Shown: positions 7,448-27,325 of the stretch, one piece after another
Layout of the letters: each line of letters opens with the position of its first letter
Numbering within the stretch: position 1 is the first letter of the stretch
Assembly (NCBI GenBank): GCA_019359115.1
Contig: JAHHHW010000118.1
Span: 1-43,351, forward strand
Source: Pelatocladus maniniholoensis HA4357-MV3
Lineage (GTDB): Bacteria > Cyanobacteriota > Cyanobacteriia > Cyanobacteriales > Nostocaceae
DNA: 43,351 nucleotides
Reading direction: 5' to 3'
Program-made: the position numbers and the translations under genes
Notes under the pieces: generated by a model
Told to the model about the DNA's origin: nothing
The model's database searches: none
The model's input: only the letters and a program-made list of their open reading frames with translations

Positions 7448-9055
7448 TCACTGTTGAAGCTTTTTAATCAACTCCAAAATTGTTTGATATAACTCTGTAT
7501 TTCCTTGTTGTTTAAACAGTTCAGCAGCTTTCTGCAAATCCGCAATTCCACCTTGCTTATCTCCTGTCTCAACACGGACTATACCGCGTCGTCCGTAGGC
7601 TTGGGCATAGTTGGGATCAATTTTGAGGGCTAAGTTGTAATCAGTGATTGCACCTTTATGGTCTCCCAATTCACTGCGGGCTACACCCCGATTGTAGTAG
7701 GCTTTGGCATAGTAGGGATTAATTTTGAGAGCTTGGTTGTAATCAGCTATAGCCCCTTTATGGTCTCCCAATTCACTGCGGGCTACACCCCGGTTGTAGT
7801 AGGCTTTGGCATAGTAGGGATTAATTTTGAGAGCTTGGTTGTAATCAGCTATAGCCCCTTTATGGTCTCCCAATTCACTGCGGGCTACACCCCGGTTGCT
7901 GTAGGCATCAGCATAGTAGGGATTAATTTTGAGAGCTTGGTTGTAATCAGCTATAGCCCCTTTATGGTCTCCCAATTCATAGCGGGCTACACCCCTGTTG
8001 TAGTAGGCTTGGGCTAAGTTGGGATTAATTTTGAGAGCTTGGTTGTAATCAGCTATAGCCCCTTTATGGTCTCCCAATTCATAGCGGGCTACACCCCTGT
8101 TGTAGTAGGCTTGGGCTAAGTTGGGATTAATTTTGAGAGCTTGATTGTAATCAGCTATAGCCCCTTTATGGTCTCCCAAATCCGAGCGGACTACACCCCG
8201 GTTGTAGTAGGCATCGGCATAGTTGGGATTGAGACGAATCGCTTCTGTTAAATCAGCTATTGCCCCCTTGTAATCTTTTTGATCATACTTATCGTTAGCT
8301 TTGATAAAGAAGTCATCTGCTTTCAGCCCAGTCGCCACAACATCCGGTGGGCGCACTCCCACATCTACACCCACAGCTAACATTTGCCGCAACGCTGAAT
8401 AAATAGTAGTCCCTAAACCCGTAATAATCTTACTCTGACTTTTCTCACCAATTTCTTGTTCATCAACTCTGCCGTGAATTGCTACCACTTCCCCCTGTTC
8501 ATTTAGCACAGCCCCACCACTCATACCACTCAAAGTATCGTTATCGTAGAGAATGTTGTAACCATCACGCTGCGCCGCACCGTTAGCTTGAACTTGTCCT
8601 TTGTTGAAAAATAACTGCGGATTAGAAATTGCTGCTGTTCTGCCCGGAAACCCTGCTACATATACACTCGTACTAGATGTAGCCTTGTCAGAATTCCCAA
8701 TCTTGGCAAGTTTATAATCCTTGCTACTACTAAACTCAACCACAGCCAAATCAACATCTGGTAAGCGTTTGACAGATTTAACCTGATTGGTTTGTGTATC
8801 TGGCGTCATAATTTCGTACTTACCACCATCTTTCATCACATGATAAGCAGTCAAAACTGTGTAAGTGTTGCCAGAATGTTTAATCAAAACACCCGAACCA
8901 GAAACAGTTGGATCTTGAGTATCGACAATTCGCACAGTAATTTCTTTACCAATGCTTTCCACCTGTTGCTGAGATAAAGCGACTGCAACTTGTGATTGCA
9001 CCAAAACCATCGATACGCCGATGAATACAGGTGGCAGTGTATACAAGTACTTCAT
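7448..9055 (-). CDS. Secreted trypsin-like serine protease with eight TPR repeats
   Basis: The protein has 535 residues. Residues 1-27 form a signal peptide (hydrophobic PPVFIGVSMVLV, cleavage near VAVA-LS). Residues 35-220 are a trypsin-like protease with the triad His72 (TAYHVM), Asp102 (PDVDLAVV) and Ser179 (GMSGGAV). From about residue 248 come eight 34-residue TPRs, of which units 2-7 are nearly identical (for example NRGVARSELGDHKGAIADYN). The protein is probably periplasmic or secreted, with the TPRs serving as a docking scaffold. Such trypsin-TPR fusions are frequent in filamentous cyanobacteria, but their substrates are unknown. The near-identity of the repeats at DNA level (102-bp units) shows recent expansion or gene conversion. 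Confidence 0.88.
   Translation of the reverse strand: MKYLYTLPPVFIGVSMVLVQSQVAVALSQQQVESIGKEITVRIVDTQDPTVSGSGVLIKHSGNTYTVLTAYHVMKDGGKYEIMTPDTQTNQVKSVKRLPDVDLAVVEFSSSKDYKLAKIGNSDKATSSTSVYVAGFPGRTAAISNPQLFFNKGQVQANGAAQRDGYNILYDNDTLSGMSGGAVLNEQGEVVAIHGRVDEQEIGEKSQSKIITGLGTTIYSALRQMLAVGVDVGVRPPDVVATGLKADDFFIKANDKYDQKDYKGAIADLTEAIRLNPNYADAYYNRGVVRSDLGDHKGAIADYNQALKINPNLAQAYYNRGVARYELGDHKGAIADYNQALKINPNLAQAYYNRGVARYELGDHKGAIADYNQALKINPYYADAYSNRGVARSELGDHKGAIADYNQALKINPYYAKAYYNRGVARSELGDHKGAIADYNQALKINPYYAKAYYNRGVARSELGDHKGAITDYNLALKIDPNYAQAYGRRGIVRVETGDKQGGIADLQKAAELFKQQGNTELYQTILELIKKLQQ
7640..8240. repeat. 102-bp coding tandem repeat (TPR units of the protease)
   Basis: Blocks such as gcccctttatggtctcccaa and gggattaattttgagagctt return every 102 bp with only a few changes. 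This corresponds to the 34-residue TPR unit. Copy number is likely to vary between strains. Confidence 0.85.
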
Positions 9056-13947: not shown

Positions 13948-16098
13948 ATGAAATATGCTCATGTATTACAACATAGCAAAGAAGATTGTGGCGCCGCTTG
14001 TCTTGCTTCAATCACAAAATATTACGGAAGTCATTTTACTCTCAACCACATTCGTGAAGTCGTAGGTACTGGACAATTTGGAACAAGTTTGTTGGGACTA
14101 AAACGAGGTGCTGAAAGGCTCGGTTTTAATGTTCGTCCTGTTAAAACTTCACCTGAAATCTTAAACCAAATCAATCAAGCACCCTTACCAGCAATTATTC
14201 ATTGGAAATGTCATCATTGGGTAGTTTTATATGGTAAAAAAGGCAAGAAATATGTAGTTGCTGATCCTGCGGTAGGACTGCGGTATCTGTCTCCACAAGA
14301 TTTAGCAGAGGGTTGGACAGATTGGTTGATGCTTTTATTACAGCCAGATCCAATCAGATTTTATGCTCAACAGAGCGATCGCATCGGTGGTTTTTGGCGT
14401 TTCTTCAAGCGCATCTGGAATTTTCGGGCAATTTTAGCTCAAGCTTTACCCCTGAATCTAATTTTGGGATTGCTATCTTTAGCTTCTCCTTTTCTATTAC
14501 AAATTCTCACTGATGATGTGCTAGTTCGAGGTGATACAAAACTTCTCACTACGATGGCGATCGCTGTAGTTGTAATGAATGTTATTTCTAGCAGTTTATG
14601 TTGGATACAGTCTAACTTAATTGCTCACTTTGCTCAACGTCTGCAATTGGGGCTAGTTCTGGAATTTGGACATCAAATTCTACAATTACCACTCTTGTAC
14701 TATGAAGTTCGTCGGAGTGGAGAAATTGTCAGTCGGCTACAAGATATTAACCAGATTAATCAACTAGTTTCTCAAATTATTGTTAGTCTACCTAGTAAAT
14801 TTTTTATTGCCATAATTTCTTTAGCAATAATGACTTATTATACTTGGAAATTGACGATAATAGCTCTTTTCATTTCTATATTAATGGCGATATCTACAAT
14901 TATCTTTCAGCCCACTCTACAGCAAAAAACTCGTGATCTTTTAGTTACAGAAGCTGAAGCACAAGGTGTTTTAGTAGAAACTTTTAAAAGTGCGCTTATT
15001 CTCAAAACTACTACAGCATCACCACAATTTTGGGAAGAATTACAAAGTCGATTTGGGCGAATTTCTATCCTGACACTAGGCACGATGCAAATTAGTATTA
15101 ATAATAATATATTCTCTACCTTAGTTTCTGGAATTGGTAGTGTTGCTTTGCTTTGGTTTGGTGGGAATTTAGTAATTAATCCAGATGAAAATCTCAGTAT
15201 TGGGCAACTACTTGCATTTAACTCCATGAATGGTAATTTTGTCAGCTTAATTGCTACTGTCATTACTTTCATAGATGAATTTACTAAAGTAAAAACTGCC
15301 ACACAACGCCTTGCAGAAGTTATAGATACCACTCCAGAAAATCAAGATGATGGGAAAAAGCAGTTTGTTACAATTTCTGAAGATGCTGACCTTATCTTTA
15401 GTAATGTTAGCTTTTATTACCCTGGTCAAGTTGAACTACTAAACGACTTTAATTTAACAATTCCTGCTGGTAAAGTGACCGCCATTATTGGTAAATCTGG
15501 TTGTGGTAAAAGTACTTTAGCTAAAATAATGGCGGGTCTATATCCACTTAATTCTGGAAATATCCGCATTGGAATTTATAATCTAGAAGATATCTGTTTA
15601 GATTGTCTACGTCAACAATTAGTTTTAGTTCCCCAAGATGCTCACTTTTGGAGTCGCTCTATTATTGAAAACTTTCGTTTAGGAGCGCCTGAACTTACAT
15701 TTGAGCAGATTGTGAGAGCTTGTCAAATTACGGAAGCAGATGATTTTATTAGTAAACTTCCTAATAAATATCAAACAGTTTTGGGTGAGTTTGGGGCAAA
15801 TATTTCTGGTGGACAACGCCAACGTCTAGCAATAGCAAGAGCCATTGTTACAGACCCACCAGTGTTGATTTTGGATGAATCTACTAGCGGACTCGATCCA
15901 ATCAGTGAAGCGCAAGTTCTAGATCAGTTACTGAAGCATCGTTACGGTAAAACCACGATTTTGATTACCCACCGTCCCCAGGTAATTAATCGTGCGGACT
16001 GGATTATAGTCCTAGATCAAGGGAAGTTAAATACTCAAGGTTCTTTAGCGCAATTACGCTGTCAATCTGGAGAACATGTGAAATTTTTAAATCCTTAA
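13948..16098 (+). CDS. Peptidase-containing ABC transporter (C39 peptidase, membrane domain, ATPase)
   Basis: This predicted exporter cuts off a double-glycine leader and pumps the mature peptide across the inner membrane. The protein has 716 residues. The C39 peptidase domain occupies about residues 1-130, with Gln8, Cys14 (EDCGAAC), His90 (HHWVVLY) and Asp106 (VADPAVG), all catalytic positions present. The membrane domain covers about 155-450. The ATPase has Walker A GKSGCGKST near 514, signature SGGQRQRLAIARA near 621, Walker B VLILDEST near 638 and the H-loop THR near 673. The HlyD partner follows after 24 bp, and the putative substrate gene lies at 17871. No TolC is in the window. HetC, a heterocyst-differentiation exporter, shares this architecture, but the nearby GG precursor argues for a peptide-secretion role. 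Confidence 0.93.
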   Translation: MKYAHVLQHSKEDCGAACLASITKYYGSHFTLNHIREVVGTGQFGTSLLGLKRGAERLGFNVRPVKTSPEILNQINQAPLPAIIHWKCHHWVVLYGKKGKKYVVADPAVGLRYLSPQDLAEGWTDWLMLLLQPDPIRFYAQQSDRIGGFWRFFKRIWNFRAILAQALPLNLILGLLSLASPFLLQILTDDVLVRGDTKLLTTMAIAVVVMNVISSSLCWIQSNLIAHFAQRLQLGLVLEFGHQILQLPLLYYEVRRSGEIVSRLQDINQINQLVSQIIVSLPSKFFIAIISLAIMTYYTWKLTIIALFISILMAISTIIFQPTLQQKTRDLLVTEAEAQGVLVETFKSALILKTTTASPQFWEELQSRFGRISILTLGTMQISINNNIFSTLVSGIGSVALLWFGGNLVINPDENLSIGQLLAFNSMNGNFVSLIATVITFIDEFTKVKTATQRLAEVIDTTPENQDDGKKQFVTISEDADLIFSNVSFYYPGQVELLNDFNLTIPAGKVTAIIGKSGCGKSTLAKIMAGLYPLNSGNIRIGIYNLEDICLDCLRQQLVLVPQDAHFWSRSIIENFRLGAPELTFEQIVRACQITEADDFISKLPNKYQTVLGEFGANISGGQRQRLAIARAIVTDPPVLILDESTSGLDPISEAQVLDQLLKHRYGKTTILITHRPQVINRADWIIVLDQGKLNTQGSLAQLRCQSGEHVKFLNP

Positions 16099-16122
16099 TT
16101 ATTCACACTTATTCGTGTAATT

Positions 16123-17535
16123 ATGCTCTACACTCAGAATCAAAAACTTCTACCATCAACTTCAAATGAAGAGTTTCTTCCCCCTGTTAGTCGTTGGACA
16201 TCCTTAGCAGGATTTTTTCTTGTCGGGAGTATTGTCGCTAGCATTAGTCTGTGTTCATGGATTAAATACAATGTGACGGTAAAAGCTAGTGCTGTTGTGC
16301 GTCCTACAGGAGAAATTCGCCTCGTGCAATCGAAAATTGAAGGGACTGTTAAAAGTATTTTGGTTAAAGAAAATCAATTAGTTAAACAGGGAGAGGTAAT
16401 CGCTTATCTTGAAGATAAACAATTACAAATTAAAAATAACCAACTGCAAGGTAATATCCAACAGAATAAATTACAAATAATCCAAATTAATGCTCAGATT
16501 AAAGCTTTAGATTCCCAAATTCTTGCTGAAGCAATAGTAGCAGACGGGACAGTAGCTTCTGCCAAAATAGATTTGGAACGAAATCAACGGGAATATCAAC
16601 AGCGACAAATTACCACCAGTAGCGAATTACTTGTAGCTCAAGCAAATTTGCAAAAAGCTCAAGCAAACTTGCAAAAAGCTCAAGCTGATTTAAGCTTTGC
16701 AGAGATGGATCGCGATCGCTATCAACATTTATCACAAATTGGTGCCATTGCGAATCGGGATTTTGAGCAGAAAAAGCTAGTTGTTAAACAAACTCAAGCC
16801 ATACTTGAAGCTGAAGAAAAAGCTGTTGATATCGCCAAAGCTCAAGTGGAATCAGCTAAAGCTGCTATTAATCCTACCACTGCCACAGTGGCGATCGCTC
16901 AAGAGCGCATTACCCAAGAAACTGCAAGAGGAAAAGCAACTATCGCTTCTTTAAAAAAAGAAAAACAAGCTTTGATTCAGCGTCGAGTTGAAATACAAAA
17001 CCAACTCGGACAATCTCAAAAAGAACTCCAGCAAGTAGCAAATCAGCTGCAAGATACTATTGTGCGAGCAACTAGTAATGGTATCATCCTCAAATTGAAT
17101 TTGCGAAACCCTGATCAAGTGCTACGAGTGAGCGAGGTAATCGCTGAAATTGCTCCTAATCATACTCCTATTGTCATTAAAGCAATAATTCCCACTCAGG
17201 AGATCAAAAATGTTGCAGTTGGTCAAAAAGTACAATTGCGAATTGATGCTTGTCCTTATCCTGATTATGGAACTCTCAAAGGGGTTGTTGAAGTTGTTTC
17301 TCCAGACACAATTACATCCACAAGCAACAATATAGATGCAGCAAAATCAGGATCTACAACTTCTGTTCTTAACTACTTTGCAGCGACTATTCGACCTCAA
17401 AGTCTAACATTTAGAAATGGTGAGCGCCAGTGTCATATCCAATCAGGAATGCAGGTAAAAGCTGACATTATTTCTAGAGAAGAGACAGCGCTGCAATTTG
17501 TGCTGAGAAAAGCCAGGTTAGCTACTGATTTATAG
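16123..17535 (+). CDS. HlyD-family periplasmic adaptor (membrane fusion protein)
   Basis: The protein has 470 residues. A short cytoplasmic tail is followed by one membrane segment (about 28-50, AGFFLVGSIVASISLCSWIK), a lipoyl-like half (GTVKSILVKENQLVKQGEVI, about 72-91), a long Gln/Ala/Lys-rich coiled coil (about 95-310, with a duplicated LQKAQAN unit), the second lipoyl half, and a beta-barrel region. It should link the C39 ABC transporter to an outer-membrane channel. It is only 24 bp behind the transporter gene, clearly the same operon. The adaptor is complete, with no sign of decay. Confidence 0.92.
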   Translation: MLYTQNQKLLPSTSNEEFLPPVSRWTSLAGFFLVGSIVASISLCSWIKYNVTVKASAVVRPTGEIRLVQSKIEGTVKSILVKENQLVKQGEVIAYLEDKQLQIKNNQLQGNIQQNKLQIIQINAQIKALDSQILAEAIVADGTVASAKIDLERNQREYQQRQITTSSELLVAQANLQKAQANLQKAQADLSFAEMDRDRYQHLSQIGAIANRDFEQKKLVVKQTQAILEAEEKAVDIAKAQVESAKAAINPTTATVAIAQERITQETARGKATIASLKKEKQALIQRRVEIQNQLGQSQKELQQVANQLQDTIVRATSNGIILKLNLRNPDQVLRVSEVIAEIAPNHTPIVIKAIIPTQEIKNVAVGQKVQLRIDACPYPDYGTLKGVVEVVSPDTITSTSNNIDAAKSGSTTSVLNYFAATIRPQSLTFRNGERQCHIQSGMQVKADIISREETALQFVLRKARLATDL

Positions 17536-17653
17536 ATCATGACACAATACGTACAGATAGTTAGTCAACAATATTACAAACAGATGCGAACATATACAAG
17601 CAAATCCAATACTGCTCGGATAAGACAAATCGATTGACATTTAAACCCACCAG

Positions 17654-17673
17654 AGACGCGATATATCGCGTCT
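17654..17673. repeat. Perfect 20-bp palindrome upstream of the precursor gene
   Basis: agacgcgatatatcgcgtct is self-complementary and extends with a small bulge (acc...ggt). It belongs to the agagacgcga/tcgcgtct palindrome type also seen at 9401-9430, so it is more likely a dispersed repeat or transcript end for the adaptor gene than an operator. Confidence 0.5.
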
Positions 17674-17825
17674 GGTACAACCCCAAATGCAGTAGCAGTA
17701 TTGCACTTGCATTTGCTATTAGTATTATATTTTTCCATTACTTTATATTATCGTTATTATCTTAAAATTTTAATAGTTTATGATTGCATGAAAGTGGTAT
17801 ATCAATTTTAAAAAATCTGACTTTA

Positions 17826-17831
17826 TATAAT
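17826..17831 (+). promoter_or_regulatory. Candidate -10 box for the precursor gene
   Basis: A consensus TATAAT lies 40 bp upstream of the precursor ATG, inside a very AT-rich stretch. No good -35 is seen at the usual distance. Together with the 335-bp gap after the adaptor gene, it suggests that the small gene is transcribed on its own. Confidence 0.35.
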
Positions 17832-17870
17832 GATTAGATGAGGATTTTATTTTATTTGGAGAAATAAGCT

Positions 17871-18071
17871 ATGCGAGAAACAAAACCAAAAAAACATCTT
17901 CAACCCACACAAGATTTTACCCATGAATCGAAACTTTTTGAAGACTTAACAGATGGAGAGATAGAGAAAGTATGTGGTGGTGCTACTAAATTAGATTTTG
18001 AAGATTTTAAAGTTGATTTCAAATTTGCCAAGGTTGAATTTACGGCAGAATTTCTAACTTTTAAAATCTAA
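17871..18071 (+). CDS. Double-glycine leader precursor peptide, 66 aa
   Basis: This is the likely substrate of the C39 transporter/HlyD pair. A ggag ribosome-binding site lies 9 bases before the ATG. The leader (residues 1-37) ends in LFEDLTDGEIEKVCGG, a classic bacteriocin-type GG leader: acidic/hydrophobic helix, then Gly36-Gly37 (Cys35 just before is unusual). Cleavage after Gly37 would free a 29-residue core, residues 38-66. The core has seven Phe and five Lys against six Asp/Glu, and no Cys, Ser, Gly, Pro, Trp or Tyr; Asp/Glu-Phe pairs occur at 42-43, 45-46, 49-50, 56-57 and 60-61. Hydrophobic residues alternate with charged ones, as in an amphipathic beta strand. No modification gene is nearby. 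The peptide's function is unknown; secretion is a strong inference. Confidence 0.85.
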   Translation: MRETKPKKHLQPTQDFTHESKLFEDLTDGEIEKVCGGATKLDFEDFKVDFKFAKVEFTAEFLTFKI

Positions 18072-18097: not shown

Positions 18098-18128
18098 TAT
18101 GCTTAAATATTTTAAATATTTAAGCATA
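18098..18128 (+). terminator. Hairpin after the precursor gene, possible terminator
   Basis: Arms atgcttaaatat and atatttaagcat pair perfectly over a 5-base gap, 27 bp after the stop codon. The stem is AT-only apart from one G-C pair and no clear T-run follows directly, so it is a weak or bidirectional terminator at best. Confidence 0.45.
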
Positions 18129-18200: not shown

Positions 18201-18357
18201 TAGAGCATGTTTGAAAAGTCATGATTGATGTATCAAATATTTTTTACCCCACCCTAACCCTCCCCTTTACAAGGGGAGGGAACTGGATTTCTCTCCTTTA
18301 TAAGGGGAGTAATAATGTAATTAAAATTACAGCCAATCACTTTTCAAACAACTTCTT
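18201..18357. mobile_element. MITE-like element, family 2, copy A
   Basis: The left end agcatgtttgaaaagtcatg and the right end ccaatcacttttcaaacaac are imperfect inverted repeats around a ccctcccctttacaaggggagg hairpin-like core. A further left-end fragment (agagcatgtttgaaaagt) follows immediately at 18358. Copy B is at 22148-22312. There is no ORF. Confidence 0.65.
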
Positions 18358-18454
18358 AGAGCATGTTTGAAAAGTATTGGGCGAATATAATTCGCTACTA
18401 CACAAGCGCGACGTGTAGCGGCTTCCTGATAAGGAAGTCCACCAACATTTTAAT

Positions 18455-19812: not shown

Positions 19813-20079
19813 TTAATATTCTCTGGCAGCAAGCCCATCTAATTCTCGCTGTGTCCATTTTTTTCTGAAGAAATTAGGACTTAATACAACAATTCCATAC
19901 TTTGATTGTGAAAGACCTTGATCTATTGAACGACGTAAACTGTCTCCCAGCTTTAAAGTCAACTCATCATACCAAACACGATAGTCTTTTTGTCTTAACC
20001 TACTAGCAAGTTCTCTAACAAAAATATCTTTATCTTCACTTGCATGACTGACAAACACATCATATAAATTACTCATCAA
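19813..20079 (-). pseudogene. Truncated TIR-domain protein
   Basis: The 88 residues cover only the first two thirds of a TIR domain: YDVFVSHASEDKD (box 1), then LASRLRQKDYRVWYDELTLKLGDSLRRSID, carrying the Glu expected for NADase activity (WYDE), then GIVVLSPNFFRKKWTQRELDGL. A TIR domain normally continues another 40-60 residues after this helix, with a further strand and helix, and is usually fused to a second module. Here a stop follows AAREY, and no homologous continuation is seen in any minus frame down to 19600. It is probably a remnant of a signalling or anti-phage TIR protein. A short functional protein is unlikely. Confidence 0.7.
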
Positions 20080-25735: not shown

Positions 25736-27325
25736 ATGGTAAAAAAAATTAGCTGGATCGTTTGGGGATTAAGTGCTTCTTGTTTGAGTCTGCCAGTATT
25801 AGCTTTGGAAATTTCCATGAGCGCTAACGGTATTGACGTTCTGAAGTTACATAAAGCCCCGTATAATCTCACAGGTCGCAAGATTGCCATTGGTCAAGTG
25901 GAAATTGGGCGTCCTGGTAAGTTTGGTGTAGACAAAGCAGTTTCTAAAAATCGCTCTGTCAATATAACAGGTGTGTTTTTACGCAATAATCCCGCTAAGT
26001 CAAATACTGGTGTTGACCCTCACGCCTACAATGTTGCTGGTGTCATGGTTAGTACAGATAAAGGCTTCCCAGGAGTAGCCCCAGGGGCGCGGCTATATTC
26101 GTCTGCTGTAGGTTCCACAAAAATGGGACAGCCAGAAGAATGTTTATCTGCACAGCACGTAGCACTGCAAAATGGTGGCGACGTTCGTGTCATCAACTTT
26201 AGCTTTGGCGAACCTCTAAACCGTGATCCGCGACCGGAGGCTGTTTTGGATGGTAACGCCTTACTAACCCAATGTATTGATTGGTCTACTCGCGCTCACA
26301 ATGTTTTATATGTGATTGCTGGCAACCAAGGTAAAGGCGGAATTCCTATCCCTACCGATAATTTTAATGGAGTAAATGTGGCTTTTTCCTCTCGTCGGGG
26401 AGGAATTTTTAATAAAGTAGACGTTTCCAATTTGGTGGCGACAACTGAAGCGATGACCCTCCGTTTATCTGGCAAGGAAATTAATCTTGGTTCCCGTGGC
26501 ACAATTGGTATAGTGGCTCCTGGTAGTAATATTCCCTTGCTTAATCCTGATGGCAAAATTAATAAAGTCACAGGGACAAGTTTTGCAGCACCACATGTGA
26601 CAGCTACAGTTGCTCTATTGCAAGAGTTTGGTGACAAACAATTACGAACAAAACAACCAAATTGGAGTACTGCTTCTCGCCAAAATGAAGTTATGAAAGC
26701 TGTTTTATTAAATTCTGCTGACAAAATTCAAGATGCTGGCGATGGCTTGCGGCTAGGAATGACCAGAACACTCATCAATAAACAAAATCAAGACTGGCTG
26801 ACTTCTGATGCTTATAAAAATCCCAAAGTTCCTCTGAATAATCAGATGGGGGCTGGTCATTTAAATGCTTTTCGTGCTTACCAGCAATTTAGTGGAGGTC
26901 AATGGAAACCATCACAATCTGTACCTGCCATTGGTTGGAATTATGATACTGTCAATGCTGGTTCATCAGTGGAATATGTTTTCGACAGACCGTTACAGCA
27001 GAAAAGTTTTGTGGCTATCACCTTAGCTTGGGACAGGCTAGTAGAACTGAACGATAAAAATAAGAATAATCAATTTGATGCAGGGGAAAATTTTCGCGAT
27101 CGCGGTTTAAATAATCTTGATATCTATCTAGTCAAAGCTGATGCGACACAAAATAGAGACACAGAGACTGTTTGCGCCTCTACTAGTGATGTCGATAGCG
27201 TAGAACATATTTTTTGTCCTGTCCCCACCACCGATAAATATAAAATTCGCGTCCAGTTTCGCAACCAAGCAAACGAAGCCACTCAGCCATACGCTTTGGC
27301 TTGGTGGACTGTACCGAAAAAATAG
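25736..27325 (+). CDS. Exported S8 (subtilisin-like) peptidase with Glu at the catalytic Asp position
   Basis: The protein has 529 residues. Signal peptide about 1-24 (KKISWIVWGLSASCLSLPVLA). The subtilase domain covers about 45-390. His96 is in DPHAYNVAG, the oxyanion Asn197 in VIAGNQG and Ser282 in GTSFAAPHVTA. The strand that normally carries the catalytic Asp (VAVxDTG) reads KIAIGQVEIG and aligns Glu56 with that Asp. A C-terminal beta domain (about 400-529) contains a DKNKNNQFDAGENF loop that resembles a calcium-binding turn. It may be a slow or inactive protease, or a Glu-adapted one. A serpin gene follows on the same strand, 130 bp away. Confidence 0.88.
   Translation: MVKKISWIVWGLSASCLSLPVLALEISMSANGIDVLKLHKAPYNLTGRKIAIGQVEIGRPGKFGVDKAVSKNRSVNITGVFLRNNPAKSNTGVDPHAYNVAGVMVSTDKGFPGVAPGARLYSSAVGSTKMGQPEECLSAQHVALQNGGDVRVINFSFGEPLNRDPRPEAVLDGNALLTQCIDWSTRAHNVLYVIAGNQGKGGIPIPTDNFNGVNVAFSSRRGGIFNKVDVSNLVATTEAMTLRLSGKEINLGSRGTIGIVAPGSNIPLLNPDGKINKVTGTSFAAPHVTATVALLQEFGDKQLRTKQPNWSTASRQNEVMKAVLLNSADKIQDAGDGLRLGMTRTLINKQNQDWLTSDAYKNPKVPLNNQMGAGHLNAFRAYQQFSGGQWKPSQSVPAIGWNYDTVNAGSSVEYVFDRPLQQKSFVAITLAWDRLVELNDKNKNNQFDAGENFRDRGLNNLDIYLVKADATQNRDTETVCASTSDVDSVEHIFCPVPTTDKYKIRVQFRNQANEATQPYALAWWTVPKK

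Follow-up and report, generated by a model that had tools for sequence, protein, structure and literature searches.

Gene organization of the locus

The window analyzed here is a 43,351-nucleotide stretch of the filamentous cyanobacterium Pelatocladus maniniholoensis HA4357-MV3 (contig JAHHHW010000118.1). It contains a group of three genes encoding an ATP-binding cassette (ABC) exporter with a C39 peptidase domain, an HlyD-type adaptor, and a small precursor peptide with a double-glycine (GG) leader. Pfam analysis of the exporter identified Peptidase_C39 (8e-35; residues 3–130), ABC_membrane, and ABC_tran. Cys14, His90, and Asp106 are found at the positions reported in a first-pass annotation of the same DNA, which had called the transporter complete, and Walker A (515), ISGGQ (619), and Walker B (639) are also intact. 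The protein therefore carries on one chain the domains that define a peptidase-containing ABC transporter (PCAT): C39 with its Cys/His/Asp, a transmembrane domain (TMD), and a nucleotide-binding domain (NBD). No N-terminal CAP_ED or cyclic-nucleotide domain appears among its Pfam matches, which assigns it to the short type.

The gap between the exporter and hlyD measures 24 bp, as had been claimed. Besides its Pfam match to HlyD_3, the adaptor matches NCBIfam TIGR01843 at 6.9e-47, yet falls under the cut-off of that model (160 vs 209 bits). The precursor gene (17871–18071) lies 335 bp behind hlyD and encodes 66 amino acids with GG at positions 36 and 37; the features claimed earlier for the precursor, including its GG leader and 29-residue core, were all confirmed. 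From this linkage, the exporter is predicted to cleave and export the GG precursor. A single TolC-like protein containing two OEP repeats, in addition to weaker matches, is encoded elsewhere in the genome.

Table 1. Features of the secretion locus in the window
Feature	Position	Strand	Basis
C39-peptidase ABC exporter (PCAT), short type; C39, TMD, and NBD; 716 aa	13948..16098	+	Pfam
HlyD-type membrane-fusion adaptor, 470 aa	16123..17535	+	Pfam HlyD_3, 4e-13
Dispersed repeat in the hlyD–precursor gap	17606..17687	.	Copies found in G001 and G003 by DNA search
Conserved upstream element TTGCATGAAAGTGGTAT..., imperfect 11-bp direct repeat	17784..17813	+	Conserved in 7/7
TTTATATAAT stretch behind the upstream element	17822-17831	+	Conserved 5' region
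Precursor leader, 37 aa, ending in VCGG	17871..17981	+	Ten residues invariant in 7/7
29-aa core peptide (Cys, Ser, and Gly all absent) with its stop codon	17982..18071	+	Eleven residues invariant in 7/7
A+U-rich hairpin 3' of the precursor, possible terminator	18098..18128	+	Aligned in 7

Conservation of the three genes

A search of 198 genomes with the precursor, a check that the first-pass annotation had proposed, gave homologues at E<1e-17 in seven genomes, the window's own (G000) counted, and weak matches alone, extending to E 0.1, in five more. The other six are Fischerella muscicola SAG 1427-1 (G001), Westiellopsis prolifica IICB1 (G002), Fischerella sp. PCC 9431 (G003), F. thermalis PCC 7521 (G010), F. 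muscicola PCC 7414 (G092), and genome G061. The GG site is kept in all seven, and all seven genomes hold C39 exporters; homologues lacking the GG site or occurring without any C39 transporter, which had been named beforehand as counterevidence, were not encountered in this group. Reading frame, GG, leader, and a large part of the core are retained in the homologues, and the precursor is therefore more than a chance open reading frame (ORF).

An evenly drawn order-wide set yielded precursor matches in 6 of 388 genomes at E<=0.01 (two of them strong), and a family-wide set in 24 of 217 (nine at E<1e-10). These counts describe spread, not independent discovery, since the query alignments include most of the strongly matching genomes; in the family-wide search the match in genome G094 alone lies outside the query alignment. 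Plasmids searched by tblastn contained no match to the precursor. The family appears to be particular to this lineage of the Fischerella group.

Related exporters are present in 137 of the 198 genomes searched. Five candidates were scored per genome, and the following figures apply among the matches listed. Orthologous exporters, 84–93% identical to that of the window, occur in Westiellopsis, G061, PCC 7414, and PCC 7521; the next-best exporter is 80% identical. In each of the five genomes with an orthologous exporter, the precursor is located 249–415 bp behind hlyD, and scanning with a loose pattern revealed no further GG ORF near these exporters. Window matches to this pattern at 27183, 36572, and 39750, which are distant from the exporter and not leader-like, were left out of the counts, as were L024:2932, L066:8632, L027:5918, L109:14056, L114:3864, and L115:15011, which are distant or lack a leader-like context.

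The five loci occupy two unrelated settings. A uvrA setting is common to the window and Westiellopsis. In the other setting, a nitrogenase-like reductase gene flanks the locus in G061 and PCC 7414, and a glycogen-debranching-enzyme gene flanks its opposite side in these two genomes and PCC 7521. We compared ORFs of at least 80 amino acids in the stretches fetched and treated the precursor separately. The two settings have only three genes in common, along with an ORF on the antisense strand within the exporter gene, which argues that the exporter, hlyD, and the precursor are conserved as a unit without a recognizable immunity or modification gene. Such recurrence had been named in advance as support, and it bears out the earlier proposal that the three genes form a peptide-secretion locus. 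The reported absence of immunity and modification genes beside the locus also stood: none was recognized among the genes common to the five loci, and no Pfam match to LanM, YcaO, radical SAM, or SurA-type proteins was obtained for 15 of the 28 window ORFs of at least 200 amino acids and two shorter neighbors (listing thresholds of E<=1e-5 in two scans and E<=1 in one).

The precursor and its core peptide

Alignment of the seven close precursors revealed 21 invariant columns. Those in the leader are Q14, L22, L26, T27, E30, E32, V34, C35, G36, and G37; those in the core are T39, K47, D49, F50, K51, A53, K54, E56, F61, T63, and K65. Ratios of nonsynonymous to synonymous substitution rates (dN/dS), pooled over pairs that are not independent, were ~0.76 for residues 2–21, ~0.30 for residues 22–37, and ~0.43 for the core. 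By this measure, the core is under moderate purifying selection overall.

The window core contains 6 acidic, 5 basic, and 7 aromatic residues and has a net charge of -1. Its charged fraction is 0.38; in 60 other GG cores, this fraction averages 0.16 and does not exceed 0.30. Cys is absent from the core in all seven close members; Ser is absent in five, and the other two have one. The lack of Cys and near lack of Ser argue for an unmodified secreted peptide without lanthionine chemistry. We considered a lanthipeptide or other modified product and set it aside on this composition and on the lack of a linked enzyme among the genes scanned. An NHLP or N11P precursor was likewise rejected: the NCBIfam library, which we take to include models for both, lists NF038167 alone for the window precursor at E<=1, and no library family model scores the precursor over its cut-off. 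A search of the PDB with the precursor profile returned nothing under E 0.09.

Hydrophobic and charged residues alternate in the core in a manner that resembles designed ionic-complementary β peptides. The 16-residue β-type hydrophobic moment of the window core was reached by 1.8% of 2000 shuffles and by one of the 60 other GG cores; for the cores of the six other close relatives, it was reached by 1.65 to 7.7% of shuffles. The two cores examined of the three in genome G066, described below, show no such excess (28 and 40% of shuffles). Because the seven cores are related to each other, these values lend weak support to a β-strand character, which is suggestive only.

Orphan precursors and a probable change of cargo

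Two of the seven close genomes, SAG 1427-1 and PCC 9431, hold an intact precursor without an orthologous exporter. The best C39 exporter in both is of a second type, whose member in the window genome (G000:C70) is 74% identical to the window exporter. This paralogue has two GG peptides of the CTB family (NF038167) upstream, and no ORF at its locus is similar to the window precursor. In SAG 1427-1, the orphan precursor still adjoins the hydrolase gene of the window and the exporter is gone, while the orphan of PCC 9431 sits between other genes than in the window. Inspection of 17 kb round each orphan revealed no remnant of an exporter. Their cores differ by 5.5 synonymous changes in 17.2 sites and 4.5 nonsynonymous changes in 69.8 (Fisher P of 0.003 or 0.02, depending on rounding), and this synonymous excess indicates that the orphans are still under selection. 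More distant homologues exist in G066, where three lie in tandem, and in G094; no exporter was found in the 18 kb fetched round the G066 tandem, and the surroundings of the G094 copy were covered to 3 kb.

We also fetched the neighborhoods of 12 further exporters for comparison of their cargo. Upstream of each of the seven exporters that are 78–80% identical to that of the window lie three or four GG ORFs, whose cores are unrelated (for example, ...YLFILGAGVVFGNPGLTPDEIQFAWES...); at five loci of 76–77% identity, there are two to five upstream. In the exporter tree, the window clade (support 1.0) is nested inside the group formed by those seven (0.96 and 0.998). Nested position and unrelated upstream peptides together make cargo replacement the parsimonious reading, in which the exporter line probably gave up its upstream peptides and acquired a different one downstream.

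These results qualify the claim of one dedicated substrate. The claim holds only within the orthologous exporter clade (five of five). The precursor is present without that exporter in two of the close genomes and in the two that carry distant homologues, and the nearest exporters have different GG peptides. A different precursor beside the transporter in relatives had itself been named in advance as evidence against the claim; the seven nearest exporters provide it, and the strict form of the claim fails.

Upstream element, hairpin, and repeats

The conserved upstream element begins 87 bp before the ATG of the window precursor. All seven close genomes keep it as TTGCA[TC]GAAAGTRGYAT, 82–87 bp before the ATG and followed by a TATAAT-like stretch, and in slightly changed form it also stands before all three orphans of G066 and before that of G094. 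A final pattern produced 27 matches in the 198 genomes. Eleven have zero mismatches and all of these precede GG precursors, a result that is partly by construction because the pattern was composed after viewing those 11 upstream regions. The informative part is that no further zero-mismatch match exists in the 198 genomes and that the reversed control gave 0. The other 16, one with a single mismatch and 15 with two, are not followed by a GG ORF. An earlier pattern based on the seven close members (up to two mismatches, three genomes) gave an extra exact match on contig C108 of the window genome with no precursor behind it. No regulator of the element was found. A 10-letter fragment of such elements recurs in the accessible part of a paper on HetC of Anabaena (PMC4133259), where it belongs to cloning primers for alr2818; the match is probably due to chance.

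The 3' hairpin, folded alone, forms in six of the seven close members and is broken in the PCC 9431 orphan; the longer fold of 97 bases loses it in PCC 7521 as well. A simple terminator scan did not pick it up. DNA similarity between the window and the two close orphans sets in at ~17736, about 50 bp behind the dispersed repeat; the shared block excludes hlyD. The 5' element, the 3' hairpin, and the limits of this block suggest that the precursor is a separate transcription unit able to move alone, with the element and hairpin as putative promoter and terminator.

Intergenic dispersed repeats flank the precursor at 17606–17687, 18235–18284, and 18354–18443, with copies elsewhere in SAG 1427-1 and PCC 9431. 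The first has at least tens of copies in these two genomes among the matches listed. Such repeats may help the precursor move as a single gene.

The search for the upstream element also uncovered a dispersed, partly tandem element at L145 and L151–L159 (G066 and G094) and at L132:4007 on contig C108 of the window genome. It consists of TTGCATGAAAGTTGTATATNACTTTAYAAA and TTTTCTGGAATTCTTA at a fixed distance of 37–38 bases, mostly followed at 77–109 by a CCAGTG...CACTGG hairpin with a T-run. It looks like a small-RNA family whose upstream element is related to that of the precursor, and it is perhaps comparable to the tandem NsiR1. A scan of 12 loci gave no Rfam match at the gathering score. Locus L132 (G000:C108:28000-44000) contains epimerase and DUF2141 genes, as found beside the G066 tandem orphans (L026), and an IS605-type transposase gene. 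It has no precursor, and a precursor-type upstream element is left at 7968–7992 on the minus strand without an ORF. Two-mismatch copies of the element adjoin the same gene (L132:6262-7380) in SAG 1427-1 and Westiellopsis.

Other observations

Between 22505 and 28775, the window encodes an exosortase (EpsH), two ORF products that match no Pfam family, an S8 peptidase, and directly behind it a serpin (E 2e-120); the serpin beside the subtilase is a possible protease/inhibitor pair. A TIR-domain ORF of 88 amino acids (19813–20079) seems to be a truncated copy, its Westiellopsis homologue (L020:12597-14042) having 481. At L164 and L167 (G495 and G453), GG-leader peptides have cores of short PQFQ/PQFE-type repeats (QFQLPQFEFQLPQFEFQLPEFQMP) unlike the other cores.

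A model for the locus and its alternatives

We consider it probable that the locus is a type I peptide-secretion module that releases a lineage-specific 29-residue core, likely unmodified, which replaced earlier cargo and is sometimes served in trans. According to this model, the precursor would be transcribed from its own promoter and cut by the C39 domain after Gly37. The core would then pass out of the cell through the ABC part of the exporter, the HlyD adaptor, and a TolC-like channel whose gene lies elsewhere, most likely without modification. This lineage-specific cargo would have taken the place of older GG peptides of the exporter line. Orphan precursors, kept without an adjacent exporter, would presumably be served in trans by the second exporter, since SAG 1427-1 and PCC 9431 both hold this 74%-identical type. 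Having considered signal, matrix, and bacteriocin roles, we regard it as most likely that the core acts on the producer's own filaments, as a signal or a surface/matrix peptide, rather than as a bacteriocin.

Several observations weigh against this model. The orphans show that the pairing of precursor and exporter is not strict, and core conservation is only moderate. The AlphaFold model, of low confidence (pLDDT 51.7), presents the core as a helix and not a strand. The window and Westiellopsis cores differ by 0 synonymous and 8 nonsynonymous changes, a difference that is not significant (P of 0.35) and that could hint at bacteriocin-like diversification. This last comparison, together with the moderate dN/dS of the core and the narrow, patchy distribution of the precursor, would fit an unmodified class II-like bacteriocin or microcin directed at close relatives, with immunity encoded elsewhere or provided through the exporter. 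GG precursors with C39/HlyD pairs are classically bacteriocins, and Wang et al. name the corresponding gene group bacteriocin clusters (PMC3140520). However, the five loci share no immunity-like gene, the core has many charged residues, a net negative charge, and no Gly, and purifying selection acts on it overall, with orphan copies still constrained. We judge a bacteriocin unlikely. Modification of the core by an unlinked enzyme, which would make it a ribosomally synthesized and post-translationally modified peptide in the strict sense, is highly improbable: unlinked lanM genes are reported in cyanobacteria (PMC3140520), and Thr and charged residues are modifiable in principle, but Cys is missing from the core and Ser nearly so, and no modification gene is common to the five loci or present among the window ORFs scanned.

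The orphans raise a further alternative, in which the precursor is an independent regulon gene whose product is exported chiefly in trans and whose place beside the exporter is incidental. The precursors of SAG 1427-1, PCC 9431, and G066 lie away from such an exporter behind the same upstream element, the gene has its own 5' element and 3' hairpin, and the block shared with the two close orphans excludes hlyD. Against this stands the arrangement of the orthologous exporters, all five of which have the precursor immediately downstream and no other GG ORF near, in two unrelated settings. We find this alternative doubtful. A bolder reading is a long shot: a small regulon of scattered, mobile single GG-peptide genes, marked by the 11-bp direct-repeat promoter element, would have been captured by a group III exporter of the Fischerella line. 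Its main peptide would be an amphipathic, charge-alternating β strand that self-assembles extracellularly into part of the matrix or sheath, with export in trans wherever the neighboring exporter was lost.

Returning to the secretion module that we favor, its kind of exporter is well known, whereas the precursor family seems undescribed (a keyword search of the open-access literature found no description) and the cargo swap is probable. What appears new is the precursor family, the evidence for a cargo change within an exporter line, and orphan precursors under selection. Together they offer a natural test of whether cyanobacterial C39 exporters are dedicated or shared.

Comparison with known systems

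Group III cyanobacterial bacteriocin clusters consist of a short C39 transporter and HlyD (PMC3140520). Wang, Fewer, and Sivonen described 19 such clusters in 2011 with 3.89 precursors on average, and the group III results in the accessible part of their report come from genome mining only (PMC3140520). The window locus resembles these clusters in its short C39 ABC transporter, adjacent HlyD, and GG precursor, and no LanM, SurA, or peptidase-less second ABC transporter was found among the window ORFs scanned. It differs in having one precursor, which lies downstream of hlyD behind its own upstream element. By its genes, the locus matches the group III layout; an antimicrobial product is putative. 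A 2015 survey of Fischerella and relatives, as far as its accessible part goes, counts two group III clusters each in PCC 7414 and PCC 7521 and one each in PCC 9431 and SAG 1427-1, and states that many short peptides at such clusters await characterization (PMC4558948). These counts fit a window-type plus a 74% exporter in the first two genomes and a 74% exporter without the window type in the others, and window-type loci are probably already included in them. The first-pass view that the locus is set apart from standard bacteriocin loci is therefore not supported: the layout is that of published group III clusters (PMC3140520), already counted in Fischerella (PMC4558948).

Group VI does not fit, because the transporter is short rather than of the long type and the S8 peptidase (25736–27322) lies 7.7 kb past the precursor behind unrelated genes. 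No S8 gene is common to the five loci, although the stretch fetched from Westiellopsis may stop short of that distance. The CTB family (NF038167) has a similar GG leader and the same kind of exporter, but the window precursor scores 12 bits and its G061 homologue 17.4 against a cut-off of 32.

The exporter aligns nearly end to end with its structurally solved relatives PCAT1 (PDB 4ry2; residues 2–711) and ComA (8hf4; residues 9–715), which are likewise peptide exporters of the C39-TMD-NBD type. PCAT1 and ComA belong to Gram-positive systems without an outer-membrane channel, and ComA has the accessory protein ComB.

Among cyanobacteria, HetC is a C39-type exporter required for heterocyst differentiation. 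Efficient secretion of EbfG1-4 requires PteB, a C39 transporter of Synechococcus elongatus (PMC4997328); these proteins serve biofilm formation, and EbfG1-3 form amyloid (PMC4997328, PMC9981879). In both PteB and the window locus, a C39 transporter would export small GG proteins, as demonstrated for PteB and predicted from the genes for the window. The EbfGs are encoded by four genes in an operon, whereas the window core is short and highly charged. For an EbfG-like amyloid peptide, which would aggregate in β form in the matrix, the indications are mixed: the β-type moment of the core exceeds that of most shuffles, and the low-confidence AlphaFold model shows a helix. With the window core, the cyanobacterial GG peptides that might have roles other than as antibiotics gain one more candidate.

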